Notes: generated by a model not told the origin, from the sequence alone. A stretch of DNA of 64,000 nt from Paractinoplanes deccanensis (GCF_016862115.1 NZ_BOMI01000037.1:124001-188000); one strand, 5' to 3'; numbered from the stretch's first letter, positions 4,728 through 59,546 are shown. Numbers and translations: made by a program.

Positions 4728-4782
4728 TGGCCGCACGGTGCGGCAGCGTCAGATTCGCTGGAGAAACCTCGATCGACTCCAG

Positions 4783-6721: not shown

Positions 6722-7381
6722 ATGCCTTTGATTGCCATAACCGACATCGCCTTCACCGCGCTCTCGCGCCGCGCCAAGGACGAGGGACTCGACCCGGCCG
6801 ACTTAGTCGACGCCCTCTTACGCCCTCTCATCGATGAGGACGCTGACGTCTCCGTTGTGGCGCCGGCCGCCGTTGAAGTCGAGAACACCGCGAGCAGGGG
6901 CGTCGGATCGGAGCACCTCGGTGCCAAGCTGTCCATGCTCGTCGAGCAGTACGCCGCTGCTTACAGCCGCGCCGAGCAGGCGGCAGCCATCGCCCAGCGA
7001 ATCGGCAGGCAGGAACGCGAGCGCGCCGAGGCGGACGCTGCTCTTGCCGGGCAGGACGCGATGGTGAGCAACGCCAAACTCATGACCGCGATAGACGCGC
7101 TGGCGACCGGCACCGTGAGAGCGGTCCCCGACACTCGACTCCCGGTCTGCACCTGGCAGCGAGGCGTGGTCGAGGTCCGTGCCGTCAGTAGCGACAACAG
7201 CCGCTCGGTGCGCGTGCGCTACACCCCCGCGCAGGCCGTCGCCGCCGGTGCCGCGCTCATCGCTTGCGCCGCCGTCTCCAACAGCAACTCGGTCACCCAG
7301 CTCCCCCCGATCCTGCCTCCGTTCCCGGAGCGAGTGGAGACCGGCGACTTCGCCGCGGCCGGCACGAGGAGGTCTCGATGA
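6722..7381 (+). CDS. hypothetical element protein with coiled-coil middle
   Basis: 219 residues from ATG 6722, with GGGAGAA upstream. Residues about 1-60 form a helical domain (LSRRAKDEGLDPADLVDALL). Residues about 75-130 are an Ala/Glu/Arg-rich probable coiled coil. The C-terminal block with VEVRAVSSDNSRSVRVRYTP is the part shared with the preceding protein. The stop overlaps the next start (ATGA). Function is unknown; the repeat architecture along this run suggests lineage-specific duplication. Confidence 0.6.
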   Translation: MPLIAITDIAFTALSRRAKDEGLDPADLVDALLRPLIDEDADVSVVAPAAVEVENTASRGVGSEHLGAKLSMLVEQYAAAYSRAEQAAAIAQRIGRQERERAEADAALAGQDAMVSNAKLMTAIDALATGTVRAVPDTRLPVCTWQRGVVEVRAVSSDNSRSVRVRYTPAQAVAAGAALIACAAVSNSNSVTQLPPILPPFPERVETGDFAAAGTRRSR

Positions 7382-39417: not shown

Positions 39418-39819
39418 ATGGTGCAAGCGTTCGGGACGCGGTTGGCGGTGCGGCCGGTGCCGCTGGCGGTGGAGTTGTCGGCGATCCAGTACGACGCGGA
39501 GCGGCGCGCGCTCGCGTGCGCGTGGCACATCGTATGCGGCGCTGGCGTGACCGACCCGAAGCTCGTCGTGAGCTGCCTGGTCCGGCTCGGGACGGCCGAC
39601 CTCCCCTGTGGGTGTCGGCCCACGGCCATCGCCGCAAGCAGGCGGACACGAGGGCGGGACACGGCCGTGCTCGGCGAGCGGCTCACCCTCGACCAGGCGC
39701 TCGCCGAGCGTGTCACTCATCGGCGCTATGCCCCGGCCCCCCGATGCTCAGGATGCCGGGACGGTCATGAACTCCGTTGTTCACAACATGCATGTAATGA
39801 AGGGAACCACTGTGACTGA
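39418..39819 (+). CDS. hypothetical protein preceding the FxLD methyltransferase
   Basis: 133 residues from ATG 39418, with GGGGAGGCG eight bases upstream. Codon third positions are strongly GC, as in real genes here. The C-terminus is cysteine-rich (CSGCRDGHELRCSQHACNEG) and may bind a metal. The stop lies 8 bases inside the methyltransferase gene. No family is recognised. It could belong to the lanthipeptide cluster by position. Confidence 0.6.
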   Translation: MVQAFGTRLAVRPVPLAVELSAIQYDAERRALACAWHIVCGAGVTDPKLVVSCLVRLGTADLPCGCRPTAIAASRRTRGRDTAVLGERLTLDQALAERVTHRRYAPAPRCSGCRDGHELRCSQHACNEGNHCD

Positions 39820-41095: not shown

Positions 41096-41170
41096 GTGAG
41101 CAGCGCGCGGCTCGCCCGCACCGGCCAGGTGGCCAACAAACCCTCCGCACCCCGTAAGGAGATGATGTCG

Positions 41171-41368
41171 ATGGCTCCGCCGACTGCGGTCCTCGACGCA
41201 CCCACCGCCCCCGAGGCCGAGGCCGTCACCGACGACGACTTCGAGCTCGACATGCGCGTGGTCGAGGCCACGACGCCGCTGGAGGTGTTCATGTGCAACA
41301 CCAACGACGGCTGCGGTTCGACGTGTAGCACGAGCGCCTGCTCCACGTCCTCGTACGACCCGCGCTGA
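41171..41368 (+). CDS. FxLD-family lanthipeptide precursor
   Basis: 65 residues from ATG 41171, chosen because AAGGAG sits nine bases upstream; ATG 41162 and 41165 are too close to it. The leader has the FxLD signature FELD at residues 24-27, in DDDFELDMRVVE. The core is rich in Cys, Ser and Thr, with cysteines at 42, 48, 52 and 57 (MCNTNDGCGSTCSTSACSTS). An Asp46-Gly47 pair is the best candidate for modification by the methyltransferase. LanB would dehydrate Ser/Thr and LanC form thioether rings. The cleavage site is unknown. Confidence 0.9.
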   Translation: MAPPTAVLDAPTAPEAEAVTDDDFELDMRVVEATTPLEVFMCNTNDGCGSTCSTSACSTSSYDPR

Positions 41369-41391
41369 CCGCGCAACACATCCCCTCTGAC

Positions 41392-41429
41392 GCCGTCGGA
41401 GCCCGCGCCGCCTCGCGGGCTCCGACGGC
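41392..41429 (+). terminator. strong hairpin between precursor and lanB
   Basis: GCCGTCGGAGCCCGCG (41392-41407) and CGCGGGCTCCGACGGC (41414-41429) form a perfect 16-base stem with a six-base loop, 23 bases after the precursor stop. Similar hairpins in lanthipeptide operons reduce transcription into the large enzyme genes and protect the precursor mRNA. The ribosome binding site for lanB follows at 41448-41454. Confidence 0.75.
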
Positions 41430-41459
41430 TTCACCCCTTGGCTCGCTTGGAGGAGCGGC

Positions 41460-44400
41460 ATGCCGACCGTTGTCCACCCCTACCGGCCGGTCGGCCCCGT
41501 GCTGGTCCGCGCCAGCACCACCCCCGGCGCCGCCGACAGCGCGCCACCGTCCGGCTCGGCCGCATCCGACGAACTCGCCTGGCTGGCCACCCAGTGGTCC
41601 CAACCCGAGCTGCGCGACGCGGTCACCCTGGCCAGTCCCGACCTCGCCGCACGCGTCCACCAACTGCTCACCGACGGTGACCCGCCCACCCGAGCGGTCC
41701 ACCGCGTCGTCACGGCGACCGCCTCCTACCTGGCCCGCTGGCAGCGGCGAGCCACCCCGTTCGGGTTGTTCGCCGGTGTCACCGCCGTCACGATCGGCCC
41801 CACCGTCGCGCGGATCGGAGAACGGCACACCGCCGTGGCTCGGGCCGACGCCGACTGGCTCACCCGGATCGTTGACCGGCTGGAACAGGACCACGGCCTA
41901 CGCCGCACGCTCATGGTGGTCGCCAACAGCGGCGGCCACGTCCGCGATGGCCGGTTCATCGTCGCCGCCCGCCCGGCACCCGGCCAGCGCTCGCCCGGCC
42001 CGCTGCGGGAAATCTCCACGCGCTGCACCCAGCCGGTGCGGCTAGCGCTCGCCCACGCGGCCACACCGGTGCGGTTCGACCACCTTGCAGCGCAGCTCGC
42101 CGGGCAGCTTCCGCAGACCGAGCTGCGCACCATCGAGGCGCTCTTGCACGGCCTGATCGACGGCCAGGTCCTGATCACGAACCTGCGCCCGTCGATGACC
42201 GCCGTGGACCCCCTCGCCCACGTGCTCGCCGCGCTTGGGGAGGCCGACACCCAGAATCTGGCCGAGATTCCCGCGCTGATCGACCGACTCGACGACATCC
42301 ACGCAGAACTGCGCCGCCACAACAAGCAGGCCGATCCTCGGAGGCAAACGGCGTTGCGCGCGGTGGCCACCGAGATGATGGCCGCGATCGTGCCGGCAGC
42401 GGCCGAGCCGCCGTTGGCCGTGGACGTCCGGCTCGACGCGACCGTCAGCTTGCCGCAGCGAGTTCTCGATGAAGCCGCGTGCGCGGCCGGGGTGCTGCTG
42501 CGGGTCACCACCCAACCGTTCGGGTCACACGCCTGGCTGGACTACCACGCCCGCTTCCGCGCCCGGTACGGTTCCGGCGCGGTCGTGCCGGTCCGCGACC
42601 TCCTCGCGGACTCCGGCCTCGGCTATCCGCCCGGATACCTGGGCGAACCACGGGCACGACCGGCGTGGCGCACGCTCACCGAACGCGACGCCTACGTGCT
42701 GGCGCTCGTGCAGCGGGCGATGCTCGACGGCGCCGACGAGATCCGCCTCACCGACGCCGACATCGAGGCCCTCACCGTGGGCGACCCCGCCGCTGCCGTG
42801 CCCCCGGCGCGGCTGGAACTCGGCGTCTCCGTGCACGCCGTCTCCACCGAGGCGATCGACCGCGGACAGTTCGAGCTGCGGATCACCGCAGCGCCCCGCA
42901 CGCACACCAGCATGGTCGGACGGTTCGCCCACCTGTTGACCGCCGCCGACCGTGACCGGCTGGCCCGCACCTATCCGCCGGGCCACGGGCGGGGTCTGGT
43001 CGTGGCGCAACTGTCGTTTCCGCCCCGCCGGGTGCACAACGAGAACGTCGTGCGCGTGGCCCGGCGAACCGCCCGCGTGGTGTCGGTCGGCGAACACCCG
43101 AACGGCGACGTGATCCGCATCGACCACCTCGCCGTCACCGCCGACGATGACCAGCTCTACCTCATCCACGCGCCGACCGGCCGGCGCGTCGTCGCGTACC
43201 TGCCACACGCCCTCGCGGCCGTGCAGATGCCGCCGCTGGCCCGGTTCCTCGCCGAGGTCGGCGACGCCCGCACCGCCGTCTTCGGTCCGCTCGACCTCGG
43301 CGCCGCTGCCCGCACCCTGCCGTATGCGCCCCGCATCCGCTATCGGCAGACCGTGCTCGCCCCCGCCCGCTGGTGGCTGACCACCGCCGACCTCACCGCA
43401 CCGCACCCCGACGGCGACAGCGAGACCTGGGACAAGGCCCTCGACCGGTGGCGACGGCACTGGCGTGTCCCAAGCAGGGTGATCGCATGCCACGACGAAC
43501 TGCGCCTCCCGGTCAACCTCGACGAGCCAAACGACCGGCGGCAACTGAACACCCGACTCAGCCGCGCCAGCCGGCTCGAACTCCGCGAGGACGCGCCCAC
43601 CGACGGCGACGGCTGGCTCGACCGCCCGGCCGAGCTCGTCATCCCCATGACCCTCACCACGCCGCAAGCCCGGCCGGTGCCGGTCACCGCCCCGCCAGGC
43701 CGCACCTATCGGCCCGGCGCGTCCGCCGTCGTCCACGCCCGGCTCATCGGCAATCCCGCCCGCTTCGACGACCTCCTCACCAGCCACCTACCCACATTCG
43801 CCGACGGCCTGACCGACCACGGCCTCCTGCGCTGGTGGGTCAGCCGGCACCGGGACATGATCCGCCTGGACGCCGACCAGTACCTGTCCGTCTGCTTCCG
43901 CCTGAAGTCACCCACCGGGTACGCGGCCGTCGCCGCCCGCCTCGGACAGCTCGCCGACGACCTGCACGCCAGAGGGCTGCCAAACGATCTCGTCTTCGCG
44001 GAATATCACGAGCAGCCCGGCCGGTACGGCGACGTGCCAGCTCTGGCCGAGTGCGCCTTCGCCGCCGACACCACCGCGGCGATCGCCCAGCTCCGCCTGG
44101 TCCAGCAGACCGGCATCTCCGGTCAGGCGCTCGCCGCCGTGTCCCTGGCCGAAGTCGCAGCCGGATTCGCGCCCGACCCGGTAACCGGCTACGAGACGCT
44201 GCTGGAGCAGCTCAAACGGCACACCGACCCGGTCGACCGCGCACTGAGCGACGTGGCCCGCAACCTCACTGACCCGGTCGGCCTGTTTCCCCGGCTGCGC
44301 GCACTCGCTGGCGGTGAAGCCGTTCTCGCCGCGTGGGACGCCAGACAACAGGCACTGCGCGCCTACTACAGCGCGCTCGACGACGAACGTGCCTCAGCCC

Positions 44401-44546
44401 GCGTACTCCGGACGCTCCTGCGCGAGCACCACCACCGAGCCGTCGGGGTCGATCCCGACTTCGAGCGCCAGACCAACCACCTCGCTCGCGCCGTCGCAAT
44501 GCGATGCCTCCACATCGGCAGCCTCAACCTCAGAACCGTCCAATGA
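41460..44546 (+). CDS. lanB: lantibiotic dehydratase, LanB (full length)
   Basis: 1028 residues from ATG 41460, with GGAGGAG upstream. The N-terminal part (to about residue 730) matches the glutamyl-tRNA-dependent glutamylation domain (ATPFGLFAGVTAVTIGP; FGSHAWLDYHARFRARYG; VAQLSFPPRRVHNENVVR). The C-terminal part from about 755 matches the SpaB_C elimination domain (ARLIGNPARFDDLL; YHEQPGRYGDVPALAE). It activates Ser/Thr with glutamate from glutamyl-tRNA, then eliminates to dehydroalanine/dehydrobutyrine. The length is normal for a complete LanB, and the stop overlaps lanC. Confidence 0.93.
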   Translation: MPTVVHPYRPVGPVLVRASTTPGAADSAPPSGSAASDELAWLATQWSQPELRDAVTLASPDLAARVHQLLTDGDPPTRAVHRVVTATASYLARWQRRATPFGLFAGVTAVTIGPTVARIGERHTAVARADADWLTRIVDRLEQDHGLRRTLMVVANSGGHVRDGRFIVAARPAPGQRSPGPLREISTRCTQPVRLALAHAATPVRFDHLAAQLAGQLPQTELRTIEALLHGLIDGQVLITNLRPSMTAVDPLAHVLAALGEADTQNLAEIPALIDRLDDIHAELRRHNKQADPRRQTALRAVATEMMAAIVPAAAEPPLAVDVRLDATVSLPQRVLDEAACAAGVLLRVTTQPFGSHAWLDYHARFRARYGSGAVVPVRDLLADSGLGYPPGYLGEPRARPAWRTLTERDAYVLALVQRAMLDGADEIRLTDADIEALTVGDPAAAVPPARLELGVSVHAVSTEAIDRGQFELRITAAPRTHTSMVGRFAHLLTAADRDRLARTYPPGHGRGLVVAQLSFPPRRVHNENVVRVARRTARVVSVGEHPNGDVIRIDHLAVTADDDQLYLIHAPTGRRVVAYLPHALAAVQMPPLARFLAEVGDARTAVFGPLDLGAAARTLPYAPRIRYRQTVLAPARWWLTTADLTAPHPDGDSETWDKALDRWRRHWRVPSRVIACHDELRLPVNLDEPNDRRQLNTRLSRASRLELREDAPTDGDGWLDRPAELVIPMTLTTPQARPVPVTAPPGRTYRPGASAVVHARLIGNPARFDDLLTSHLPTFADGLTDHGLLRWWVSRHRDMIRLDADQYLSVCFRLKSPTGYAAVAARLGQLADDLHARGLPNDLVFAEYHEQPGRYGDVPALAECAFAADTTAAIAQLRLVQQTGISGQALAAVSLAEVAAGFAPDPVTGYETLLEQLKRHTDPVDRALSDVARNLTDPVGLFPRLRALAGGEAVLAAWDARQQALRAYYSALDDERASARVLRTLLREHHHRAVGVDPDFERQTNHLARAVAMRCLHIGSLNLRTVQ

Positions 44547-45706
44547 CCGCCGCCACACCAATCACCCTCACCGAGACCGAATCCGGTGCGCAGTCGCTCG
44601 CCTCCGGAACCGCCGGGCACGCGCTGCTCGCGGTCGAGCGGGCGATCAACGGCGGCGCCAACTGGACAATGGCTCAACATCTGATCAAGCAGGCGGCGGC
44701 CCGGGTCGACGCCGCGCTGCATACCGGGCTTTACTACGGTGCGCCGGCCATCGCCTTCCTGCTGCACTCCACGATGGCCGACGGCCGCGACCGCTACCAC
44801 GCCGCCCGGCAAGCCCTCGACCGGCACGTCCGCAGACTCACCCGCACCCGCCTTGCCCACGCCACCCAGCGGCTACACGATGGCCGGCCGGCCACCTTCG
44901 GCGAGTACGACCTCTTCACCGGCCTGATTGGCTTCGGCGCCCTGCTGCAACAGTTCGCGCCCGACAGCCAGGAGTACGGCTTGGTGCTGTGCTATCTCGT
45001 TGAACTGGCCCATCCCCGCTACCACGACGGTCTGCACGTTCCCGGATGGTGGGTCGACCATGACCCTGATCCGCTCTACCCGACCGCCGGCGGGCACGCC
45101 AACCTCGGGATGGCCCACGGCGCGGCCGGGCTGCTCGCGCTGCTCTCCAATGCCGCCCGCCTCGGCCATCAGGTGCCCGGCCAGTCCGAGGTGATCGTCT
45201 GGCTGTGCGGCTGGTTCGACCAATGGCGCCAGGAGTCCCGGCACGGCCCCTGGTGGCCGCAGTGGATCACCCGGGACGAGCTGCGCACCGGCCACCTCAC
45301 GCACGGCTGCCCCGGCCGGCCGTCGTGGTGCTACGGCACCCCCGGCATCGCCCGCGCGCTGCAACTGGCCGCCATCGCCACCGGCGACCGCGCCCGTAAG
45401 ACCGTCGCCGAACACGCCCTCGCCGCCTGCCTCACCAGCCCACAGCTCGACCGGCTCACCGACCCCGGCATCTGCCACGGCCTCGCCGGGCTGTACCAAA
45501 CCGCGCACCGGGCCGCCGCCGACACCGCCAGTCCCGTCATCGCCCAGCAGCTCCCCGCCCTCGCCGACCGCCTCACCGCAACCGAAGACGGGGACGGCGA
45601 CGACAGCGGATTCCTGACCGGCACTATCGGTGTCCGGTTGGTGATGGAAACCATCCGCGCCGGCCAGACCTACACGAGGTGGGACGCATGCTTGCTGATC
45701 GCCTAA
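44543..45706 (+). CDS. lanC: lanthionine synthetase, LanC
   Basis: 387 residues from ATG 44543, overlapping the lanB stop. The zinc site of LanC cyclases is visible: Cys in SWCYGTPGIARAL at about residue 268 and Cys-His in GICHGLAGLYQTA at about residues 312-313, plus the LGMAHGAAG His. It forms thioether rings by adding precursor cysteines to dehydrated residues. All three zinc ligands are present, so it should be active. Confidence 0.9.
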   Translation: MTAATPITLTETESGAQSLASGTAGHALLAVERAINGGANWTMAQHLIKQAAARVDAALHTGLYYGAPAIAFLLHSTMADGRDRYHAARQALDRHVRRLTRTRLAHATQRLHDGRPATFGEYDLFTGLIGFGALLQQFAPDSQEYGLVLCYLVELAHPRYHDGLHVPGWWVDHDPDPLYPTAGGHANLGMAHGAAGLLALLSNAARLGHQVPGQSEVIVWLCGWFDQWRQESRHGPWWPQWITRDELRTGHLTHGCPGRPSWCYGTPGIARALQLAAIATGDRARKTVAEHALAACLTSPQLDRLTDPGICHGLAGLYQTAHRAAADTASPVIAQQLPALADRLTATEDGDGDDSGFLTGTIGVRLVMETIRAGQTYTRWDACLLIA

Positions 45707-46632
45707 CAGTCAACCCCGGGCAGCTCGCCCAGCGGGTGGAAGCGGTGCTCGCCGGCACCGCTGTCGAACACTCCGCCGTCGACGGCATCGACCTGACCGA
45801 CGCGGTGGAAACTTACCGAGCTGCCGGGCGGGCCGCCCTGGACTGTAGGCAAGAGCGCGCCTGGTTCCAGGCGCGGATTACTTGGCCGGAGTGGGTCGAC
45901 GCCGAATCGGTGTTCGCCGCGCACGTCGCACCCCGCCTGGACGACGTCCGAGACGGACCGGCCTGGTGGTTCCTGCGCAAGTACCCGCACTGGCGGCTGC
46001 GGGTTCGCACCTGCGACCACCGCGCGGTCGAGACCCTTCTCGATGACCTCTCATCGGCCGGCACGATCGCCGGCTGGCAGCCCGGCATCTACGAGGCCGA
46101 GACCGCCGCCTTCGGCGGCGAGGTCGCCATGGCCATCGTCCACGACCTGTTCTGCGCCGACAGCCGAGGCGTGCTCACCTACGCCCGTCAGCACACGCCA
46201 CCGCTCGGCCGCCGCGAACTGTCTCTCCTGCTCCTCCAGGCGCTGAACCGGCATGCCGGGCTGGACTGGTTCGAGATCGGCGACGTCTTCGCCCGGGTGG
46301 CCCAGATGCGACCCACCCCGGCCGACCACGACACTCCTGGGATCGACGCCTTGGCCGCGAAGGTGCATCCCGTGCTGGCAAGCGACATCACCACCGAGAT
46401 GCCTCTGTTCACACGCGGCGGACCGGTCGCCTACGCCGCCGACTGGCTGGCCGCGTTCATCCAGGCCGGCCGGCTGCTCGGCGAAGCCGCCGCCACCGGC
46501 CGCCTCGACCGCGGCCTACGGGCAGCTCTCGCACAGATCGTGATCTTCCACTGGAACCGGCTCGGCTTGCCCGCCCATACCCAAGGCATCCTCGCCCACG
46601 CCGCGAAAGCCGCCACCCTACCTCGGAGTTGA
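45688..46632 (+). CDS. thiopeptide-type bacteriocin biosynthesis (SpaB_C-like) protein
   Basis: 314 residues from ATG 45688, with ACGAGGTGGG upstream, inside the lanC 3' end. WFQARITWPEWVDAESVFAA, WWFLRKYPHWRLRVRT and YEAETAAFGGEVAMAIVHDL are the marks of the stand-alone SpaB_C/thiopeptide-type family. Because LanB here already has this domain, the second copy is extra. FxLD clusters often carry it. It may do elimination on a different residue set or serve another tailoring step. Confidence 0.85.
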   Translation: MLADRLTVNPGQLAQRVEAVLAGTAVEHSAVDGIDLTDAVETYRAAGRAALDCRQERAWFQARITWPEWVDAESVFAAHVAPRLDDVRDGPAWWFLRKYPHWRLRVRTCDHRAVETLLDDLSSAGTIAGWQPGIYEAETAAFGGEVAMAIVHDLFCADSRGVLTYARQHTPPLGRRELSLLLLQALNRHAGLDWFEIGDVFARVAQMRPTPADHDTPGIDALAAKVHPVLASDITTEMPLFTRGGPVAYAADWLAAFIQAGRLLGEAAATGRLDRGLRAALAQIVIFHWNRLGLPAHTQGILAHAAKAATLPRS

Positions 46633-46635
46633 CCC

Positions 46636-47817
46636 ATGCCTCCGTCACCGCTTACTGCCGCCATCCGCCGGTTCCCGCTGCTCGGCCGCCCCCGGCCCGA
46701 CTGCCCAGCGCTGCCGCTGCGCATCCAGGAGATCGCCGACGCCGTGGACGCCGCACGGCAGAAGGCGGACCACGGCATGGCCGACGCCGCCCACGCCCTC
46801 AACAAGGCCGCCCTGATCGCCAGCGACGCCGGCATGACCGACCTCGCCAGGCACTTGTGCTGGCAGCACATCGACACCTACCGCCATGCCGGACGGCCCC
46901 TGACCATCCTGGAAGCCCGCTACCTGCTCGAACCGGTCCTCAACCTCGCCCGCCTCCAGATCCGCACCGACCAGGGCACCGCCGCCGTACGGCTCCTGGA
47001 ATCGATGTACTCGGCCGTCACCAAGCGCTGCGATCTCGTCGTCACCGACCGGACCCTGCCGCTGGCCAACCTCGTCGGTGAACCCGCAGACCGGCGCCAG
47101 CTACGGCAATGGGTCTGGCTCCAACTCATCGGCGAAGGCGTCCGCGCCCTCGCCCTCGCCGGCCGATGGGACGCCGCCGCCGAACACGCCCGCCACTACA
47201 ACGGCATCGGCGACCACCTGATGGAAGGCCGCCAAGCCGACATCATCAAGCACTGCCTGCGCGGTGACCGCCCGCAGGCCCGCACCGTGCTTGCGGAGAC
47301 CACTACCACCGAGCCCTGGGAACAGGACGTTGCTGCCTGCCTCCATCTGATGTGCCTCCATGCCAGCGACGAACCGACCGCACCAACCGACTCAATGCCG
47401 CTGCTACAGGCAGCCGTCACCCGGTACGACGGCTGCATCGGCACCGCCAACTACGCCTCGTACCGCGCCCGACTCGGCCTCATCATCGCCACTCTTGCCG
47501 ACAGCATCAGCCCAAGCATGGCGACCAGCCTGCTCAGCCGGGTCGCAACGAACGCGATCAGCTCCGCAGACGGATACGCGGCCCGCGACGTACTCGGCTT
47601 CCGCGACCTCATCGAGGGCATCACCGACGCCCAACGTAGCGGTCTCAACTGCCTCGCCGGGGAGGCAGGTCTTGCGATCGGGACGCTGCCCGAGTCAATC
47701 CTGCAGTCGCTGACCGCGGTGAGCGACGAGGCAGCGGCCGTGCTGCATGCCGCGCTTGCGGCCCGCAGCGTCGTTCACACCAGTGTGGCCATCAAGAGCG
47801 GGGTGACGACGCGGTGA
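46636..47817 (+). CDS. helical hypothetical protein of the lanthipeptide cluster
   Basis: 393 residues from ATG 46636, four bases after the previous stop. It is made of helical pairs (MADAAHALNKAALIASDAG; LRQWVWLQLIGEGVRALALA; VAACLHLMCLHASDE), like a TPR solenoid. No catalytic motif is seen. Its tight placement at the 3' end of the FxLD operon suggests an accessory role, perhaps a scaffold or regulator. No immunity or export gene is evident next to it. Confidence 0.7.
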   Translation: MPPSPLTAAIRRFPLLGRPRPDCPALPLRIQEIADAVDAARQKADHGMADAAHALNKAALIASDAGMTDLARHLCWQHIDTYRHAGRPLTILEARYLLEPVLNLARLQIRTDQGTAAVRLLESMYSAVTKRCDLVVTDRTLPLANLVGEPADRRQLRQWVWLQLIGEGVRALALAGRWDAAAEHARHYNGIGDHLMEGRQADIIKHCLRGDRPQARTVLAETTTTEPWEQDVAACLHLMCLHASDEPTAPTDSMPLLQAAVTRYDGCIGTANYASYRARLGLIIATLADSISPSMATSLLSRVATNAISSADGYAARDVLGFRDLIEGITDAQRSGLNCLAGEAGLAIGTLPESILQSLTAVSDEAAAVLHAALAARSVVHTSVAIKSGVTTR

Positions 47818-48243: not shown

Positions 48244-49335
48244 GTGGCAGGGCAGGACGACCGCAAGGACGGTCCGCGTCCAGCGAGTCGTACCGCGCCA
48301 TGGCCGCCGGCTCAGGTGGAGGTCAAGCCTGATCCCGTCGATGACACGCGTCAGTACGCCGCGTCGGTCGTGAGCCCCCTACGCTATCCCGGTGCCAAGC
48401 GACAGCTTGTTCCGCTCATTGAGCGGATAATCGCCGGAAATGTTCCACCACCTCGATTGTTCGTGGAGCCCTTCTGCGGAGGAGCGACAACTGCGCTGCG
48501 ACTGGCCGGCACCGGGGTCGTTGAGCATGTCGTGCTTGCAGACGGCGATCCTCTGGTGGCAGCGTTCTGGTACACGGCCGCATTCGACACAACGTGGCTG
48601 ATAGACGCGATGCGCGAGGTGCCGGTAACAGTAGAACGGTGGAAGTGGTGGCGGAACTGCAATTCGACTTCAGTTCGGGACCTAGCGCTCAAATGCCTTT
48701 TCCTCAACCGAACTACGTTTTCTGGGATTCTGCATGGTTGGGCCGGCCCGATCGGCGGCCTGAACCAGAACGCCGAGACCAAGTACAAAATTGACTGCCG
48801 CTTCAACAAGGATGCCCTCGCGCAGCGCATCAGCGCCGTCGGGCAACTAGCAGACACGGGGCACATACTTGAGGTGTGGAGTCACGACTGGGGAACCAGT
48901 CTAGACCTTGTCGGCAGTCGGTACCGAGGGCTTGTGGGGCCGGAAGAGGCGGTGGTGTACCTCGATCCACCGTATGTTGAAAAGGCCCCGTATCTGTATC
49001 AGTGGTCCTTTCAAGATGATCAGCATCGCGCCCTCGCACAGGTGCTTTCCGGCGACACCCCGTTTCGGTGGCTGTTGTCATATGACGACAACGCCCTCGC
49101 ACGCGCACTGTATCCTCCCGCCGAAAGGCACCACGTACTACACGCCATGCACCGGTACACCGCAGCAGGGCTAAAGGCGGACGAAAAGAAGGGGAAACGA
49201 CAAAGAACCGTCCGCGCCGAGCTACTCGTGACCAACTTCCCGGACATCCCAGAGTCGGACGACTACCACGTCGTTGGTGACACCACGTGCGTCTCATGCC
49301 AGAAGGCCGACTCGGCAGACGCGGACCGGAGCTAA
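48244..49335 (+). CDS. D12-class DNA adenine (N6) methyltransferase
   Basis: 363 residues from GTG 48244, with GAAGGGAGAAAG just upstream; ATG 48217 is an alternative. RYPGAK at about residues 47-52, motif I FVEPFCGGATTALRL at about 73-87, CLFLNRTTFSGI at about 151-162 and motif IV DPPYVEKAPYLY at 241-252 define the D12/Dam family. It should methylate adenine at an unknown site. No restriction endonuclease of the usual type is next to it; instead HerA and NurA follow. Less GC-rich codons than in the lanthipeptide genes suggest separate acquisition. Confidence 0.9.
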   Translation: MAGQDDRKDGPRPASRTAPWPPAQVEVKPDPVDDTRQYAASVVSPLRYPGAKRQLVPLIERIIAGNVPPPRLFVEPFCGGATTALRLAGTGVVEHVVLADGDPLVAAFWYTAAFDTTWLIDAMREVPVTVERWKWWRNCNSTSVRDLALKCLFLNRTTFSGILHGWAGPIGGLNQNAETKYKIDCRFNKDALAQRISAVGQLADTGHILEVWSHDWGTSLDLVGSRYRGLVGPEEAVVYLDPPYVEKAPYLYQWSFQDDQHRALAQVLSGDTPFRWLLSYDDNALARALYPPAERHHVLHAMHRYTAAGLKADEKKGKRQRTVRAELLVTNFPDIPESDDYHVVGDTTCVSCQKADSADADRS

Positions 49336-49661
49336 GAGAGGGCTTCCGTCCTCGGCGGACAGACGGCATCATGATTGATCGTGTCGTTGACGCCACTGAG
49401 TGTATTTTCTGATCTTGTTTCGCGATGCGCCGCCCGGGGCGCCGTGACCGGCACTGAGCCGCCGACCACCCGAGGCGCACGATGGGCCTCTGGTCGATCG
49501 CCCCAAGGTGTCGTGCACTATCGCTCCTGATGCAGCCGCTGTCGCGTAGAGCCGTCGGTACTCCGAATGGGTGAAGCCGCAGCTTTTCTGTCGTACCCCC
49601 CTGGTACCTCTATCTGCGGTGCGTTCAGCGTCCAGCGGGCGCATGACCAAGGAGGATTCAC
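49336..49661. other. gene-free gap between methyltransferase and HerA
   Basis: These 326 bases hold no frame with a binding site on either strand. AAGGAGG at 49649-49655 belongs to the HerA gene. The length leaves room for a promoter or small RNA, but no clear signal is seen. Confidence 0.5.
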
Positions 49662-51770
49662 GTGACCATGTTGTCCGGCATCGCCGGGGCTGCGTCGGCT
49701 GGCGGCAACCCGCTCACCTGGCTGCTCGACGGTGCTAGCCGCCTAGGCGGCATCTATCACCTCGGCTATGACCGTGCGACCGTCATCACCGACGATCTGG
49801 TCAAGCGCGACGCTGGCGGAGTGCCCCGCAACGGATTCCTCCTCGCGGCGGCGACGAAGCCGACGAAGGAGACCAACGCACCGCTCGATGAGGAGGAAGT
49901 CATCCTCCTGCGCGTGCGTAGCACCGCGGCACTGCCCAATGAGGCCGAGTTGGTCGCGACCCGGCTGGCCGCGATGCGTGACGCCGACATCCGCGACAAG
50001 ACTCCCTCCGAAGTAATGGACAACCTCACCTCGAGCCAGACCCAGCTATCGGCGTTCGAGTGTGACGTGCTCGGCACCTTCTACGCCGACACCGTCGCTC
50101 GCCGGCCCTTCATCCAATGGGGCGCCGACATCGACAACGTCTACGCCGGCGCCCGATACTTCGTGTACCTGCCCTCAGCCGAGGTGTTGTCGTTCGTCGC
50201 CTCCTACCCTGAGCGGACTGAGCAGGAGATCGCCGAGTCGGCCACTCCAAGCCTGATCGAGTTGGGCACCGTGCGGTTCGCCTCGACCCGCCGTCGGGCG
50301 ACAGCGGCGAAGATGGATGCCGTGCCGGTGAAGGTTCGAGTCACGGACTTCATCTCACGCAAGACAGCCGTGCTCGGCATGACGCGCGTGGGCAAGTCCA
50401 ACACCAACAAGACGATCTGCACGGCTGTGTTCGAGCATGCCGCTCGCACAAAGGTCAAAATCGGACAGTTGATTTTCGACCCACAGGGTGAATACGCCAA
50501 CGTCAACGACCAAGATAAAACCGGCCTGAGACTGCTCGGTACGGGAAGCGACCTGGTGCACATCTACAAGATGCGCCCGGACGCGAAAACCGGGCAGGAG
50601 TTCCCGCTGGCCGTCAACTTCTTCGACACCGACGAGCTGCCTATGGTGTGGGAGTTCGTGCAGAACTCTTTGGCCGACGTGACCACCGCCTACGCCAACG
50701 CGTTCAAGACCGCGGCCATCTTCGACCCGGATCGCACCGACTTCCCCAGCGGCCCGGCCGGTGACAAGGAGTTCTACGACGAGCTGGGCAAGGCGCAGCG
50801 TGCCCGGTTGGCGTTCTACGCTCTGTTGTCCAAGGCCGACTTCCCGCCGCCGCCGCGCGGGTTCTCGCTGTTGTTCAAGATAAACAAGCCGCTGCGGGAG
50901 GCATTCGAGCAGGTCCGCCCCCAGCACATCCGAGTCGTCAACGAGCGTCAAGGCTTGTGTGCGGTCGACTCACCGGTCGCTGCGAAGCGGCTGATGGACT
51001 GGCTGTCAGCGCGGATCGATGAGGTGGTGACGGGGAGGGTGCCTGCCCAGTACGCCTCGCTCGACCTCCAGTCGTGGCAAAACTGCGACGCGTTCATGAA
51101 CATCCTGACCGTGTACGACGCGAAGGTGGGCAGCGTCGTACTCAATAAGATTCGTCTGCTGACGGACTTCCACGACCCGACTAGCACCGGTGATCTTGCT
51201 GACCGGGTGTGGGCGGACCTGAAGGAAGGCCGGATGGTCATCATCGACCTGTCGATCGGGTCGGACCAGGTCATTAAGATGCTCTCCGAGCGCCTGGTGG
51301 TCCGGCTGATCGACAAGGCGAACGACCGGTTCCGCAGCAACCAGCCCGCCGTGCCGATCCAAATAGTCGTGGAAGAGGCACACAACCTGTTCGACCGTGA
51401 CAAGTCGGGCAAGTCGAAGGTGCAGGATGACCCATGGGTACGGCTCGCCAAGGAGGCCGCCAAGTACGAGATGGGACTCGTCTACGCCACCCAGGAAGTC
51501 ACCAGCATCGACAAGCGGATCTTGTCGAACACGTCGAATTGGGTGGTCGCTCACCTGAACTCGGACAACGAAACGCGGGAACTGGCCCACTACTATGACT
51601 TCGGGGTCTTCGCGGACGGCCTCCGCAAGGCCGAGGACAAAGGCTATGCCCGAGTGAAAACCTTCTCCGGCAAGTACATCGTGCCGGTGCAGATCGCCAA
51701 GTTCGACCACGACATGATCAACCGGGCGCGGGCCGCAGCCGGTCTCCCGGCCATCTCGGTCGAGGATTGA
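49662..51770 (+). CDS. HerA-like hexameric ATPase/DNA translocase
   Basis: 702 residues from GTG 49662; ATG 49668 is possible. The first 200 residues form a beta-rich HAS-barrel-like region. Walker A is GMTRVGKSN at about residues 239-247 and Walker B is IQIVVEEAHNLF at about 566-577. LIFDPQGEYANVN and a C-terminal LVYATQEVTSIDKRILSNTS complete the HerA/FtsK fold. HerA proteins form hexamers that pump DNA and drive a partner nuclease. Here that partner is the next gene, 13 bases downstream. Confidence 0.9.
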   Translation: MTMLSGIAGAASAGGNPLTWLLDGASRLGGIYHLGYDRATVITDDLVKRDAGGVPRNGFLLAAATKPTKETNAPLDEEEVILLRVRSTAALPNEAELVATRLAAMRDADIRDKTPSEVMDNLTSSQTQLSAFECDVLGTFYADTVARRPFIQWGADIDNVYAGARYFVYLPSAEVLSFVASYPERTEQEIAESATPSLIELGTVRFASTRRRATAAKMDAVPVKVRVTDFISRKTAVLGMTRVGKSNTNKTICTAVFEHAARTKVKIGQLIFDPQGEYANVNDQDKTGLRLLGTGSDLVHIYKMRPDAKTGQEFPLAVNFFDTDELPMVWEFVQNSLADVTTAYANAFKTAAIFDPDRTDFPSGPAGDKEFYDELGKAQRARLAFYALLSKADFPPPPRGFSLLFKINKPLREAFEQVRPQHIRVVNERQGLCAVDSPVAAKRLMDWLSARIDEVVTGRVPAQYASLDLQSWQNCDAFMNILTVYDAKVGSVVLNKIRLLTDFHDPTSTGDLADRVWADLKEGRMVIIDLSIGSDQVIKMLSERLVVRLIDKANDRFRSNQPAVPIQIVVEEAHNLFDRDKSGKSKVQDDPWVRLAKEAAKYEMGLVYATQEVTSIDKRILSNTSNWVVAHLNSDNETRELAHYYDFGVFADGLRKAEDKGYARVKTFSGKYIVPVQIAKFDHDMINRARAAAGLPAISVED

Positions 51771-51783
51771 GGGCAACGAGCAG

Positions 51784-53232
51784 ATGTCGTACGACCAGGA
51801 ACGTGCTTCCCGCATAGGCCACGTGCCCACTGTTCTAAGCCCCGCCGTGGCTGAAGCGATGAAGCGTTGGGTGACCCCTTCAGTCAGCGTCGAGGAACCA
51901 ACACAGATCACCAGCCGGCTCATCCCGCTGGATGAGGTTCCTCGCGACCAGCGCCCCGATCCGTCGTTCACCATCGCCTTCGACGGCTCCAACCAGGAAG
52001 TCGAGGCCCGCGCGGGATTCCCGTCCGTGCGGGTGGGCTTCCTGCAGATCGCGGGCGTCTACGTCGACATCCTGCGCTTCCTCAATGCCAACCGCAGCGG
52101 CCTGGTCGACGCCCGGGAACTCGAACGCGCCCAAATCACTCAGACGGTCAACGCTGTACTGCCGGGCTCGAATGTGACGATCAAGGGGTTCACCGGCAAG
52201 GAGTCCTGGCGCGCGGAGTTCGACCGTGCGCTACACGAATCCGGCATCGACGACTTCGGCGCGAAGTTCACCCTCGCTGACGCCTTGATGACCATCCACG
52301 GCGCCCCGGGCAGGCCGGCGCCTCACGCCGAACTCGCTAAGTGTCCCAGCTGCGAGAAGGCCAGCTCTCCAGTGCAGACCGTCCCACCTGGCGGCGGGCG
52401 CTGCAGCCAATCTGGCTGCGGCGAGGCACTGCATTTGGCCGACGTGCTTCGCGTGTACGAGGAATTCAGCGACGAAGGGGAGAACCTCGGCCCCCTGAAC
52501 CGAGCGATGAACATCGCCGAACGGCTGTTGCTTGTCGCATATATTGACGGCTTCTACCGCGAGGACCCAAGTAGGCTTTCTCAGGGACTGTTCATCACCG
52601 ACGGACCCCTGGCCCTCTACGGACCGATGGCTCCGATGAAATCGAAGTTTCTGTCCTACTGGGAGCAGCTATGCAGTGACCTCGACCGCCGCGACATCGC
52701 GGCGCCGTTGCTTGTTGGCATCGAGAAGACGGGCCGCTTCGTAGACCACGCCCGAGCCATCCAGGATCACATCAAACCGGGCCACGTGATGGTCCTCGAT
52801 ACGCCGTACGTCAACCAGTACATCGTTAACCAAAAACCCGAACATTTCTACGGTCAGGACGAGTTCTACGGACGCCGGTTCTTCTACCGCACCACGACAG
52901 GGGAAGTTCTTGTCGTCACCGTGCCGCGGCTGCCGAGTGGCAGACCTTATGAGAAGCCGCAGAAGAATCCGGACGGCACCTTTGTCTCTGGGCCAGAAGA
53001 GCAACTGGCCTCGTACCCGACGCTGCGTGCCACACTTGAGGCACTCGACCTTCTACAGACTCGCCTCTACCCCAACGCCGTCATCCCCGTCGCGCTGGCA
53101 CACTCGGCGTCCTCGTTGCCGCTAGGGACCGGTCGCAGCGTTCTAACTCTTCTTGCCCAGCAAGCGCTAAACATGCCGCGCGACACGATCAGTCTCAGTA
53201 GGTTCAAACCGCCGCGATACGGTCAGAGGTAG
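51784..53232 (+). CDS. NurA-like nuclease with inserted zinc ribbon
   Basis: 482 residues from ATG 51784. FTIAFDGSNQEVEA (Asp67) and LFITDGPLALYGPMAPMK (Asp273) are the metal-binding acidic motifs of NurA, and LLVGIEKTGRF at about residues 309-319 is the third conserved segment. Between the first two lies an insert with CPSC (187-190) and C207/C212, a probable zinc ribbon not found in the simplest NurA proteins. NurA degrades DNA ends with HerA. With the adenine methyltransferase, self versus foreign discrimination is a plausible role. Confidence 0.85.
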   Translation: MSYDQERASRIGHVPTVLSPAVAEAMKRWVTPSVSVEEPTQITSRLIPLDEVPRDQRPDPSFTIAFDGSNQEVEARAGFPSVRVGFLQIAGVYVDILRFLNANRSGLVDARELERAQITQTVNAVLPGSNVTIKGFTGKESWRAEFDRALHESGIDDFGAKFTLADALMTIHGAPGRPAPHAELAKCPSCEKASSPVQTVPPGGGRCSQSGCGEALHLADVLRVYEEFSDEGENLGPLNRAMNIAERLLLVAYIDGFYREDPSRLSQGLFITDGPLALYGPMAPMKSKFLSYWEQLCSDLDRRDIAAPLLVGIEKTGRFVDHARAIQDHIKPGHVMVLDTPYVNQYIVNQKPEHFYGQDEFYGRRFFYRTTTGEVLVVTVPRLPSGRPYEKPQKNPDGTFVSGPEEQLASYPTLRATLEALDLLQTRLYPNAVIPVALAHSASSLPLGTGRSVLTLLAQQALNMPRDTISLSRFKPPRYGQR

Positions 53233-54806: not shown

Positions 54807-56468
54807 TCAAGGGTGATGTATGCGACCTCGAATGGCGGTGGCGAAAGCGACTAACTGCTCGACCGTTCCTTGCTCTGCTATGCGTCGGAGCGCATATCCA
54901 AGGGCTTGATCGTGGAAGCCTTGTTTGCTCACCCATTCGATAATCTGGTCGAGGTCTATCGGAAGTTTCTCGTCCTGCATGTTGCCGCGCACTCGACCCT
55001 GCAATTGGCCCAGTGGCCGACCGATGCGTCCGCGATCACGTGGCGTCGTGGCCGGCGATGACTCCCTATTATTTGCCGATTTCGGATCTACGATTTGGCT
55101 GCGCCGGGCCGGCCAGTTGCCCTCCGGCAATTTGCGAATCTCCTGTCGCCTCTTCACGAGAAACGATGGACCGAAATCGCTCGTTACCCATTGCCAAACG
55201 CCGTCTTTGCCTTCAACGGGATCGATTCCGTGGATGGGTTTGACCCAACCAATTCCGCCGATCGCCACTTGGCCTCCCGCCAGTCCAACCGCTTCGAGTT
55301 GACTCCGCGGCGGTGACCAGTGCAAAAGATCTGGGTAACTGAATGTCTCGGTAGGGCCATTCGTTGCAATCGTCGCGAGCCGAATTGCTTCCTCGCGCAT
55401 GTAGGCCGAGTCTAGCAATGGCGCCGGCAACGTTGGCTCATCTGAAACACCGACGATCGCCGCCGCCATTGTGGCGATGGTGTCGGTGTCCGTTTGGAGT
55501 GAACGGGCTGCGAGTAGGCTGACGGCTGCCGGATCTGATGGGAGAGCGGCGGCTAGCACGAGTGCCGCGACTGCCGTGGTTGTACCGCTGCCTCGCTGTG
55601 CTGGATCCGTAAGCTTCAGGGCTGCAATGAGGCCCTCGTACATCCTTTCGGGGCTGTCTGTCGTTTCGGTAACTTGCTGAGCCGTGACGAGTAGCTCGCG
55701 ACATTCATCAACTGTGACATGCCATGCTTCGGCAAATGGGCGACCGGTAGCCTTTTCCCACGATGGGCGCCACAACGAAGCTAATTGATGATTTCCGTCG
55801 ATTAGCTCGACAGCTTTGTCGACGACGTTGAGTAGTTCAGGCAAATCTTTGAACTTTGGTGCGACCCCAGAGTCAATCGCAACGCCTAGTGCAACGGCGT
55901 GCAAGACAGCGCCAACCAATGCGCGGGGGTGGCCGTGGGTTGTCGTTCCGTTGACGATGACATCGAGGAGGTGCGGTCCGAGGCTGGCAGGACTCTGAGC
56001 AGACCAGATATGCGGTTGAATACGCATGGCGACGCCATTGCCGCCAGCATCGTGCCATCCTTCAAAGAAATTGCCGAACCATGGGATGTTGGGCTTTGCC
56101 AGGTTGGCCGCCGCCGCCTTGCTCGCACGTCCGCCGCCTAGGGCATAGGCCGGCCATACCGGGAGTTCTACACGTGCAAATGCCTCTACATCGAACCCGT
56201 GGCCCGAGATCGCCCTCGCCGTGGCCAGGCGTAGCTGAGTGTCATCTGAATAGCATCCGGCGGGAAGAGTGACTTCTACGCCGAATCGTCCTCCTACGCG
56301 GCGCACCCATTCCACGGGCTCCACGAGCGGACGACCGCCGAGCCGCCGGCTGAGGCCATTTTCATCCGTGAGTTCTGAGATAAAGCCGACAGCGTCGGCC
56401 CAAGCCGCCCACAACATTGAGGAAATGGTGCGCTGCCGGCGCTTCGCCTCGCTTTGAGTCTCGTTCAC
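54807..56468 (-). CDS. ADP-ribosylglycohydrolase (DraG/ARH family), candidate antitoxin
   Basis: 553 residues from GTG 56468, whose GTGA overlaps the DarT-like stop. CYSDDTQLRLA at about residues 72-82 is the first metal-binding motif (SDDT), GGNGVAMRIQPH at 142-153 and THGHPRALVGAV at 177-188 are core motifs, and TDTDTIATMAAAIVG at 326-340 is the second acidic motif. All key acidic residues are kept, so it should remove ADP-ribose. The last 200 residues are a non-family extension. Next to a DarT-like ADP-ribosyltransferase it is probably the neutralising enzyme. Its codons are relatively AT-rich. Confidence 0.87.
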   Translation of the reverse strand: MNETQSEAKRRQRTISSMLWAAWADAVGFISELTDENGLSRRLGGRPLVEPVEWVRRVGGRFGVEVTLPAGCYSDDTQLRLATARAISGHGFDVEAFARVELPVWPAYALGGGRASKAAAANLAKPNIPWFGNFFEGWHDAGGNGVAMRIQPHIWSAQSPASLGPHLLDVIVNGTTTHGHPRALVGAVLHAVALGVAIDSGVAPKFKDLPELLNVVDKAVELIDGNHQLASLWRPSWEKATGRPFAEAWHVTVDECRELLVTAQQVTETTDSPERMYEGLIAALKLTDPAQRGSGTTTAVAALVLAAALPSDPAAVSLLAARSLQTDTDTIATMAAAIVGVSDEPTLPAPLLDSAYMREEAIRLATIATNGPTETFSYPDLLHWSPPRSQLEAVGLAGGQVAIGGIGWVKPIHGIDPVEGKDGVWQWVTSDFGPSFLVKRRQEIRKLPEGNWPARRSQIVDPKSANNRESSPATTPRDRGRIGRPLGQLQGRVRGNMQDEKLPIDLDQIIEWVSKQGFHDQALGYALRRIAEQGTVEQLVAFATAIRGRIHHP

Positions 56469-57130
56469 TGGAATACCTCCGGCCTCACTGTGACTGGCAC
56501 TCGCGGCACATGCGGGAAGATCGCAAAGAGCCCGTGCACGTGATCCACATTCTCGCCGTCACGTACGTATATGGCCGTCAGCTTACTGATCGATAATTCG
56601 CCGGGATACAATACTTCCGCCTGAGGGTCGGTGGTCCACTCCAGCGGCATTCCCTGGTACCGGACCTTCCTTGAACCGTAATATCCCCATTCGACCGACC
56701 CCGCAAAAAGCTTGCGCAGCGCGGGCGCCCCCATGCCGCGTTCAACGCAATTATGATATGTGTTGTTCGTGGTGGTGAAATAGACCCCAGGGTCGGCCAG
56801 AATGGAGCGATCGAACGCCAGTACGGCCCACCAGGTCTCGCCATCGTTATGCCAGCTATTTGCTGAAATTCCAAGCATTCGCCCGTTAACGCGGCTTATG
56901 GACAGATTGACGTAATCAGTCCAGTCGGCATCCTTTAAGCGGTCGGTGCAGTTTGGTTTATATATGTGCTCAATGTAATGATCCGCGTCTAGTCGATCAC
57001 GTGACCGGACCGCGCCGGTCGCGAAGATCCCGAGCAGGCCGTTGCCGGTTGTGAAGTGCAGTACCTCGGTGATCCCTCGTTCGGCGACGTATGTGGTGAT
57101 CTCGTCAGTTTTGGCCGGTCCGCCGCTCAC
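56465..57130 (-). CDS. DarT-like (DUF4433) ADP-ribosyltransferase, candidate toxin
   Basis: 221 residues from GTG 57130, overlapping the helicase stop (GTGA). VLHFTTGNGLLGIFATGAV at residues 23-41 is the NAD-binding HFT and loop region. YVNLSISRVNGRML at 73-86 follows. DPQAEVLYPGELS at 168-180 contains the likely catalytic Glu172, matching the QAE(V/F)L motif of DarT. DarT proteins ADP-ribosylate thymidine bases of single-stranded DNA and block replication. The complete catalytic set suggests activity. The usual DarG macrodomain partner is absent; the DraG-type hydrolase is adjacent. Confidence 0.82.
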   Translation of the reverse strand: MSGGPAKTDEITTYVAERGITEVLHFTTGNGLLGIFATGAVRSRDRLDADHYIEHIYKPNCTDRLKDADWTDYVNLSISRVNGRMLGISANSWHNDGETWWAVLAFDRSILADPGVYFTTTNNTYHNCVERGMGAPALRKLFAGSVEWGYYGSRKVRYQGMPLEWTTDPQAEVLYPGELSISKLTAIYVRDGENVDHVHGLFAIFPHVPRVPVTVRPEVFQ

Positions 57131-58527
57131 AAGGTCACCAACTCGTAGGTATCGGGCTTGAGCAGACCGAGGACCGTCGAGGGGTCGTCCGATTTGTAGC
57201 CAATGATGACAGATTTCCGTGCCCGGCCTACGGCCATCGCGATGAGGCGGCGGAGTCGGTCGAGCTGGGCGTCTCCGTCGCCGCCACCATGCGGCGTGAC
57301 CTCTTGGTTGAGGCCCGGCATGATGACATGGTCGAACTCCAGGCCCTTGGCCGAATGGATCGTGCAAAGTGCCACTTGCTCGGGGCCTGTCGGCCATGTG
57401 CTTGCCCGGGTCAACTCCGTCCATGGAATCCCAGCCGCCTTGAGCCGTGATCGCAGGTAGTCAAACCATCGTCCGCCACGGGGCTGGAGGAACACGACCG
57501 ACTCGCTGGTCAAGTCCACGGTGTTCAAGAGCCTGGCCAAGACGTAGTCGACCTGGCGGCTGTACTGGCCCGACACCACCACCGGCAGCGGTCCGTCAGA
57601 CTCGCACGCTTCAAAGTCAGGAAGTGTGCCGTCATCCTCAAGCGGAAGACCCTCGACGAGGGGCCGGGCAAAGGCGGCGATCTGCTTGGTGTTGCGGTAG
57701 TTGCGCTTGAGCGGGTGGATCTTGGCGAACGAGTCGATCCCGGCTTCCTTCCACGTGAAAAACCGTGGGTAGATTCGCTGGGCCGCGTCGATCACGAACG
57801 TGGCCGAGAAGGGATCGTTGAGGTGCTGTAGCACCGTGCGGATCTGGTTGGCGGAGAAGTCTTGGGCCTCGTCGATGATGACAACGTCCCACGGGGGTAC
57901 ATCGTCGACCCGCCCAGCCGCGACGGCGATATCGTTCCAGTCCATCAACCCCTTCTGCTTCTTCAGGTCGATGTACGGGAAGATCACCTCGTCCAACAGT
58001 CGTCGCCGCAGCCCCTGGTCCACCCGAGGGGTGGCACCGCGCCCACCACGCCGGGCCGGCAGGTAGGCTTCAAGGTCATCCAGCTCGAACCGGCCTAAGA
58101 CGTAATCAACCTCCTCAATAAGGAAGTCGGTGTCTCCGGCCAAGGGCCTGACCAGGGGCCGCAACAGCTTCGCCGAGTCGTCTCGGTCCAGAATCTCGGC
58201 GCCGCCCAAAAGGTCCACGGCCCACTTTCCGAAGGTCAACACTTGGAGTTCCAGCCCGACGTGGCCAATGACCTGAGCCCGAGCAAGCTCGCTGATGTAT
58301 CCCTCAAGAGTTCGGTTGTAGGTCAGTACCAGCACCCGAACCGGGGCTTCCAGGCCGAGTCGGGCGCGGCGTGACGACCATGACTCGCACAAGATCCGAA
58401 GACGATAGAGAGCTGTCGTTGTCTTTCCGCTCCCAGCGGCACCGCGGATGAGGACATACCCCGGCTTGGTGTCCCCGAGGATGGTCAACTGTTCGGGGGT
58501 AGGGGAGATAGGCGGAAGGATCCGCAT
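57127..58527 (-). CDS. UvrD/PcrA-like superfamily 1 helicase
   Basis: 466 residues from ATG 58527, preceded by AGGAGG; the longer frame lacks a binding site. Walker A GAAGSGKTTTALYRL is at about residues 29-43, motif II VVIIDEAQDFSANQ near 212-225, motif III-like ATFVIDAAQRIYPRF follows, and the C-terminal UvrD_C_2-type CTIHSAKGLEFDHVIMPG is near 386. It is shorter than full UvrD (about 700 residues), as in stand-alone ATPase/helicase partners of defence genes. It heads a three-gene operon with the DarT-like and hydrolase genes. Confidence 0.9.
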   Translation of the reverse strand: MRILPPISPTPEQLTILGDTKPGYVLIRGAAGSGKTTTALYRLRILCESWSSRRARLGLEAPVRVLVLTYNRTLEGYISELARAQVIGHVGLELQVLTFGKWAVDLLGGAEILDRDDSAKLLRPLVRPLAGDTDFLIEEVDYVLGRFELDDLEAYLPARRGGRGATPRVDQGLRRRLLDEVIFPYIDLKKQKGLMDWNDIAVAAGRVDDVPPWDVVIIDEAQDFSANQIRTVLQHLNDPFSATFVIDAAQRIYPRFFTWKEAGIDSFAKIHPLKRNYRNTKQIAAFARPLVEGLPLEDDGTLPDFEACESDGPLPVVVSGQYSRQVDYVLARLLNTVDLTSESVVFLQPRGGRWFDYLRSRLKAAGIPWTELTRASTWPTGPEQVALCTIHSAKGLEFDHVIMPGLNQEVTPHGGGDGDAQLDRLRRLIAMAVGRARKSVIIGYKSDDPSTVLGLLKPDTYELVTL

Positions 58528-58685
58528 GGCCGCCTCCTGGCGGGTCGGGGCTCGGTGTGCCGAGCTCACATGGCGGCCATATTACTCCGCCGACGCCCAA
58601 CGAGCAGATGCGTCCCTTCTTCTTCCCCTTCGGCTGGTCCGCCTCGGCATGCTACGCGGCGCGGACCGCCGGGTGGGGGTTGATT

Positions 58686-59366: not shown

Positions 59367-59483
59367 CGGTCCTGGTACCGGATGTCACACGTCAGCCTAA
59401 GCCGGCATTCCGAAAGCACGGACTTGCACGCAAACTGGTATGTAGCCGCGTAAGGCGACACGACGCGGTAGCGCCTGACAGGC

Positions 59484-59538
59484 AGAGCAGCGGACTCTTA
59501 ATCCGCGGGTTGTAGGTTCAAGTCCTACGCGGCGCACC
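59484..59538 (+). tRNA. 3' part of tRNA-Lys(CTT), attachment-site remnant
   Basis: From AGAGCAGCGGA onward the sequence matches a tRNA-Lys: anticodon stem GCGGA/TCCGC around loop CTCTTAA (anticodon CTT at 59497-59499), variable GGGTT, T arm GTAGG-TTCAAGT-CCTAC and 3' acceptor GCGGCGC-A. A normal gene would begin GCGCCGC, but the bases upstream (59461-59483) fit neither the acceptor nor the D stem (G-A mismatch in the D stem). It is therefore a 3' remnant, as left when an element integrates into a tRNA 3' end. The intact gene should be at the element's other end. Confidence 0.75.
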
Positions 59539-59546
59539 GGTGATCG

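Follow-up and report, generated by a model that had tools for sequence, protein, structure and literature searches.

A D12 methyltransferase, HerA and NurA cassette on an integrative element of Paractinoplanes deccanensis looks like an uncharacterised restriction–modification-type defence recurring in bacteria and archaea

TdpABC joins a DNA-modifying gene to a gene pair of the HerA–NurA type: TdpA is HerA-like, TdpB is NurA-like and TdpC acts in DNA phosphorothioation. PD-Lambda-5 is an anti-phage system that has been demonstrated experimentally (PMC9519451). A single operon of the Thermus element ICETh1 holds the genes for TdtA, NurA, a type IIG restriction–modification (R-M) enzyme and a methylase of the PF01555 type, and deletion of the methyltransferase had only a minor effect on DNA donation (PMC5365140, PMC7767461). 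The HerA–NurA pair of T. kodakarensis degrades both strands of double-stranded DNA in an ATP-dependent manner, and the authors of that work suggest that it destroys foreign DNA (PMC12977600). In BREX, the BrxX (PglX) methyltransferase holds the site recognition for both marking and defence (PMC11842806). NurA does not appear in papers on HerA/FtsK capture and on BREX-related capture (PMC10853773, PMC12839542), which therefore do not describe the trio of D12 methyltransferase, HerA and NurA considered here. Our wider literature search, which covered few subscription papers and none on TdpABC, returned no description of it either.

We analysed a stretch of 64,000 nucleotides from P. deccanensis (hereafter the window), in which this trio occupies positions 48244-53232 on the plus strand. 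The first gene (48244..49335, +) encodes a D12-class (Dam/DpnM-type, alpha) N6-adenine DNA methyltransferase of 363 aa when read from the GTG at 48244, in an ORF that is open from 48016. It matches PF02086 in Pfam (6e-13) and the PADLOC model PD-Lambda-5_B (210 bits), and its AF2 model (pLDDT 89.9) aligns with E. coli Dam at Z 22 and with DpnM at Z 20.9 (Z 20.9-24.3 for the Dam/DpnM group). Both catalytic motifs are intact. In motif I, EPFCGG (SAM binding, 48466..48483, +; FCGG is residues 77-80), E75, P76 and G79 are invariant and G80 is present in 41 of 43 homologues; in the catalytic motif IV, DPPY (48964..48975, +; residues 241-244), DPP is found in 43/43 homologues and the fourth position is Y or F. 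This enzyme is the predicted self-marking subunit.

The second gene, separated from the methyltransferase by 327 bp, encodes a HerA/FtsK-superfamily DNA translocase (DUF87) of 702 aa (49662..51770, +; PF01935, 8e-15 in Pfam). Its Walker A motif GMTRVGKSN (50376..50402, +; residues 239-247) and its EEAH motif (51372..51383, +; residues 571-574) are intact: G239-R242, G244-N247 and the whole of EEAH are invariant among five aligned members. Starting 13 nt after the end of HerA, the third gene (51784..53232, +) encodes a NurA/TdpB-type nuclease of 482 aa with an RNase H-like fold. The window NurA has no match of its own in Pfam, PADLOC, NCBIfam or PHROG, and PF09376 (NurA) is matched by 19 of the 54 aligned members of its family (best 9e-25). 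The residues expected of the fold are present: the catalytic Asp D67 of a DGS motif (51982..51984, +; 54/54 homologues), E246 (52519..52521, +; 51/54), the catalytic Asp D273 of a DGPLA motif that aligns to the DGRLA motif of TdpB (52600..52602, +; 51/54), and H440 of an ALAH motif that aligns to the AH of TdpB (53101..53103, +; 51/54). In addition, the protein carries a zinc-ribbon-like insert (52342..52419, +) with C187, C190, C207 and C212, each present in 51-53 of 54 members, and several members of the family give Pfam zinc-ribbon matches. HerA and NurA have the lengths of their nearest relatives (700-703 and 482-485 aa, respectively), indicating that all three genes are probably intact. 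A first-pass annotation of this DNA had named the three proteins from their DPPY, FCGG, GMTRVGKSN and acidic motifs, and these assignments hold.

The best solved relatives of both HerA and NurA are those of TdpABC, although at the sequence level the two systems are distant. HerA matched TdpA (8wet) at 1.2e-18 from the single sequence and at 1.5e-27 with a profile, compared with 3.8e-15 for the next structure. The AF2 model of NurA (pLDDT 92.3; comparison with VIA-align) was closest to TdpB (8wfd_G; Z 21.1 over 323 residues, rmsd 4.4), and scored Z 14.8 against Sulfolobus NurA (SsoNurA), Z 12.4 against T. kodakarensis NurA (TkoNurA) and Z 11.2 against Deinococcus NurA (DrNurA). The archaeal and Deinococcus pairs share with the trio adjacent genes, the same folds and matching catalytic motifs; they differ in being structurally less similar than TdpB, in having a proposed repair role and in having no methyltransferase partner described in the literature examined. 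The differences from TdpABC are also clear: the window NurA, with its insert, is longer than TdpB (~375 aa) and shares 15% identity with it over the structural alignment, and the trio would methylate bases with a D12 or PF01555 methyltransferase, whereas the modification of Tdp is phosphorothioation. No TdpC-type phosphorothioation gene was recognised beside the trio from ORFs and Pfam matches, a survey made without a TdpC model. We rejected placement in any known HerA defence system: the best PADLOC HerA model gave 80 bits, and the NCBIfam antiphage HerA model, whose cut-off is 800, gave 55 bits; the 2023 PADLOC set holds no model that fits the window NurA or the HerA subfamily well.

The first-pass annotation had proposed looking for the same trio elsewhere, and it recurs widely. 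HerA was chosen as the query because alignments of NurA are too divergent for a pattern scan of genomes and viral contigs. When 85,000 genomes were scanned with the HerA alignment, 507 relatives were confirmed; we used the 79 best loci, so that the sample leans to close relatives of the window; viral contigs added eight further close HerA loci. Seven duplicates were set aside, as were five loci truncated at contig ends (L057, L061, L070, L073, L097), and L015 was resolved using a longer stretch. The more distant HerA relatives on viral contigs (L103-L117), which are without NurA, were dropped. The related loci come from Actinomycetota, haloarchaea, one methanogen, Cyanobacteria, Chloroflexota, Clostridia, spirochaetes, Bacteroidota, Planctomycetota and phages. 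NurA follows HerA at every related locus where the contig extends far enough.

A DNA methyltransferase adjoins HerA–NurA at 84 of the 88 informative loci by script, and at 85 of 89 once G163, read from a longer stretch, is included; L081, where only one transposase-like gene parts the D12 methyltransferase from HerA, was scored as linked. Thus the nuclease is consistently linked to a methyltransferase, and the case that the annotation had held against itself, an orphan methyltransferase unrelated to HerA–NurA, can be rejected. Among the 84 loci, the D12 gene lies downstream on the same strand in 40, upstream in 32 and convergent in 4, while a PF01555-type gene lies downstream in 7 and upstream in 1. 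At 27 loci, reading frames overlap by 4 bp (start/stop). The four loci that lack an adjacent methyltransferase are two on cyanobacterial plasmids (L005, L006) and two (L084, L099) where the methyltransferase is ~2 kb away. On the two cyanobacterial plasmids, the HerA–NurA pair (at 3600-7300 of each locus) has an XRE regulator upstream. Two other loci carry altered HerA genes. In a Vibrio phage genome (L004, 1309-3502), HerA is present as two overlapping ORFs by an integrase, and the locus also has NurA and a D12 methyltransferase in convergent orientation; on a Deferribacter megaplasmid (L007, 1958-5756), an IS200/IS605 element with TnpB interrupts the HerA gene.

The distribution of the HerA–NurA pair is sporadic, and the pair is often on mobile elements. 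It was found in 2 of 61 genomes of close relatives (host included), 8 of 395 Actinomycetes (~2%, host included), 5 of 145 haloarchaea (seed genome included) and 3 of 196 genomes of a Clostridia-type class (seed genome included); among 36 sampled genomes of the same genus, only one other contained the gene family. Halorarius, Deferribacter, cyanobacterial and Vibrio phage copies are on plasmids or phages, and there are chromosomal copies too. Mod genes resembling those of type III or II systems were seen at most 10 kb away in eight checked loci, the only neighbourhoods scored for them.

Although a methyltransferase is nearly always kept, its identity is not. On the NurA tree, we count no fewer than six switches in the position or class of the methyltransferase and no fewer than two in class (D12 to PF01555), in trees that were built quickly and have many open forks. 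Pairwise distances correlate at 0.976 between HerA and NurA versus 0.63 between NurA and the methyltransferase (host relatedness uncorrected). The methyltransferases of L010, L017 and L022 share only 29-37% identity with their counterparts at loci where NurA identity is 67-83%. For example, L017 and L016 share 79% identity in NurA and 82% in HerA but 37% in the methyltransferase, and the values for L010 against its neighbours are 29-33% for the methyltransferase and mostly 77-83% for NurA; no second D12 gene was found in 19 kb around L010 (stretch L134). From these identity values, and not from the deep branches of the trees, the methyltransferase appears to have been moved, or replaced by a PF01555 enzyme or by another D12 lineage, at ~31-37% identity alongside HerA–NurA pairs of ~80% identity, and rarely lost.

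The methyltransferase also ties the trio to PD-Lambda-5. PADLOC PD-Lambda-5_B is matched by 42 of the 43 methyltransferases of the family, and in the methyltransferase tree those of phages are interleaved with those linked to HerA–NurA (14-row clade, SH-aLRT 100). The phage relatives, which stand beside integrases, are next to PD-Lambda-5_A in L119 and L121 and next to OLD/Gabija/Septu-like ATPases in L118 and L120. The effector of PD-Lambda-5 is PD-Lambda-5_A, an anti-phage protein that PD-Lambda-5_B accompanies in prophages, whereas the trio has a translocase and a nuclease; neither the window HerA nor its NurA matched the PD-Lambda-5_A profiles, and the same models gave 490 bits on the L119 partner. 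Beside a methyltransferase of the same type, HerA–NurA thus takes the position of a known defence effector.

We therefore favour, at roughly two chances in three, an R-M-like defence in which the methyltransferase marks self and HerA–NurA threads and destroys unmarked DNA. The annotation had suggested such a logic, and the exchange of methyltransferases, the PD-Lambda-5_B family link and the likeness to TdpAB support it. That the proteins methylate DNA, assemble and degrade it, tell self from non-self and protect against phage is inferred. The D12 enzyme would deposit N6-methyladenine at a short site of host DNA as the self mark. HerA would form a hexamer that pumps DNA, with a NurA dimer as its cap (a putative assembly), load onto DNA and pass it into NurA for degradation, so that methylated self DNA would be spared and unmethylated incoming phage, plasmid or conjugative DNA destroyed. 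As closely similar HerA–NurA pairs carry strongly diverged methyltransferases, which may well have different target sites, site specificity should lie in the methyltransferase. Its exchange without a change in HerA–NurA argues against a classical type II system, in which nuclease and methyltransferase each read the same site. Recognition could then work in either of two ways: the methyltransferase might also guide or license HerA–NurA, as PglX/BrxX does in BREX, or HerA–NurA might sense base N-methylation without sequence specificity during translocation. The proposed placing of site recognition in the methyltransferase is a likeness to BREX (PMC11842806), and a difference is that the putative destroyer in the trio is the HerA–NurA pair; no BREX components were recognised among the neighbours examined, and PglZ and BrxC were absent from the larger window ORFs scanned. 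Three observations speak against the R-M-like reading: the Thermus HerA–NurA–methyltransferase operon acts in DNA donation, four loci (L005, L006, L084 and L099) have no adjacent methyltransferase, and the 327-bp gap means that co-transcription of the methyltransferase with HerA in this strain is not certain.

The window trio lies on an integrative element, as the annotation had supposed. A 61-bp exact copy of the 3′ part of tRNA-Lys (59481..59541, +), an attR-like direct repeat, marks the right end; its partner is in an intact tRNA-Lys gene upstream of the window (C37:108461-108535; L133:462-536), with the repeat at ~108.48 kb. The two repeats bound an element of ~75 kb that includes window positions 1-59541, and a tyrosine integrase adjoins the left copy. 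The integrase and a VirB4-like gene lie upstream of the window (C37:108000-124000, stretch L133), and a large membrane protein further in resembles VirB6/TrbL on reading its sequence. A 16-bp exact match to the tRNA-Lys 3′ end at 56292-56307, inside an ADP-ribosylglycohydrolase gene, is perhaps a remnant att site or a GC-rich chance match. Directly upstream of the trio, 39608-47817 (+) holds a lanthipeptide-type cluster, with a 1028-aa LanB-like dehydratase, a LanC-like cyclase and a thiopeptide-type protein, all putative assignments, and a PCMT-like methyltransferase (PF01135). The same element carries a candidate anti-phage gene, for a protein with an ApeA-type N-terminal domain (10241-11590, -; PF18862, 1.6e-20). 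The neighbour that had been described as a defence-like module proves to be a DarT-family ssDNA ADP-ribosyltransferase (PF14487) overlapping an ADP-ribosylglycohydrolase (PF03747; 54807-57424, -), probably a DarT toxin-antitoxin-like variant in which the glycohydrolase replaces the usual macrodomain antitoxin; a short UvrD-like helicase (57127-58569) is beside it.

This setting, with the trio as cargo 6-11 kb from the right end and next to a toxin-antitoxin-like pair, is what would be expected if the same biochemistry had been selected for element maintenance. HerA–NurA would then destroy the under-methylated host chromosome after loss of the element and so kill the cells that lose it, and the relatives on plasmids and a temperate phage fit such addiction. 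We consider it unlikely, however, as some copies have other Mod genes close by, a pattern of defence islands, and the methyltransferase family belongs to a tested anti-phage system (PMC9519451).

The link to PD-Lambda-5, described as a compacted RM plus Abi version (PMC9519451), also bears on abortive infection, where phage or a loss of methylation would set off HerA–NurA to degrade all DNA and kill the cell. Other HerA systems (SIR2-HerA, HerA-DUF4297) work via partner effectors. The NurA of the trio has a TdpB-like DNase fold in which we recognised no additional effector domain, and the loci inspected showed no other gene conserved next to the trio, which makes this outcome quite improbable.

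A role in DNA donation, with HerA–NurA processing and pumping donor DNA as TdtA/NurA do in ICETh1 and the methyltransferase as an accessory, has experimental backing in Thermus, where efficient donation depends on TdtA, NurA and the type IIG enzyme (PMC5365140, PMC7767461). By its published description, ICETh1 also resembles our locus: it is an integrative element sited in a tRNA gene, and a single operon on it encodes a HerA-like protein, a NurA-like protein and a methylase (PMC5365140). The window trio, too, travels on an integrative element with conjugation-type genes. ICETh1 differs in its type IIG R-M enzyme, its PF01555 methylase and the donation role shown by experiment. Moreover, the VirB4-like gene of the window element lies ~50 kb from the trio, which leaves no obvious need for a second pump; the methyltransferase is nearly dispensable in ICETh1, while here it is repeatedly re-acquired; and copies exist on a temperate phage and on chromosomes. 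We regard donation as having little likelihood.

Repair, in which HerA–NurA would resect double-strand breaks as proposed for archaea and the methyltransferase link would be regulatory or incidental, agrees with the archaeal fold and gene pairing but is highly improbable, and the annotation's own reservation, a HerA–NurA pair serving host repair by itself, finds no support: the pair occurs sporadically (2/61 close-relative genomes with the host, ~2% of Actinomycetes) and is often mobile, the methyltransferase is kept through repeated rearrangement and replacement, and the nearest structures are TdpAB, not repair NurA.

In sequence terms, then, the trio looks like an uncharacterised R-M-type defence that recurs in bacteria and archaea. 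More tentatively, and with rather less than even confidence, it may represent a widespread undescribed R-M class: a HerA–NurA shredder without its own site specificity, re-targeted by methyltransferase swap, in which the methyltransferase alone would define self (by m6A, possibly m4C with PF01555 enzymes). If this is true, HerA–NurA, usually filed under archaeal DNA repair, would be linked to methylation-based immunity in both prokaryotic domains, an exchangeable base mark would explain the safety of a processive, sequence-blind nuclease, and a swap of methyltransferase would be predicted to change restriction specificity. With many actinomycetes as carriers, the cassette may also bear on the resistance of some of them to phages and foreign plasmids.
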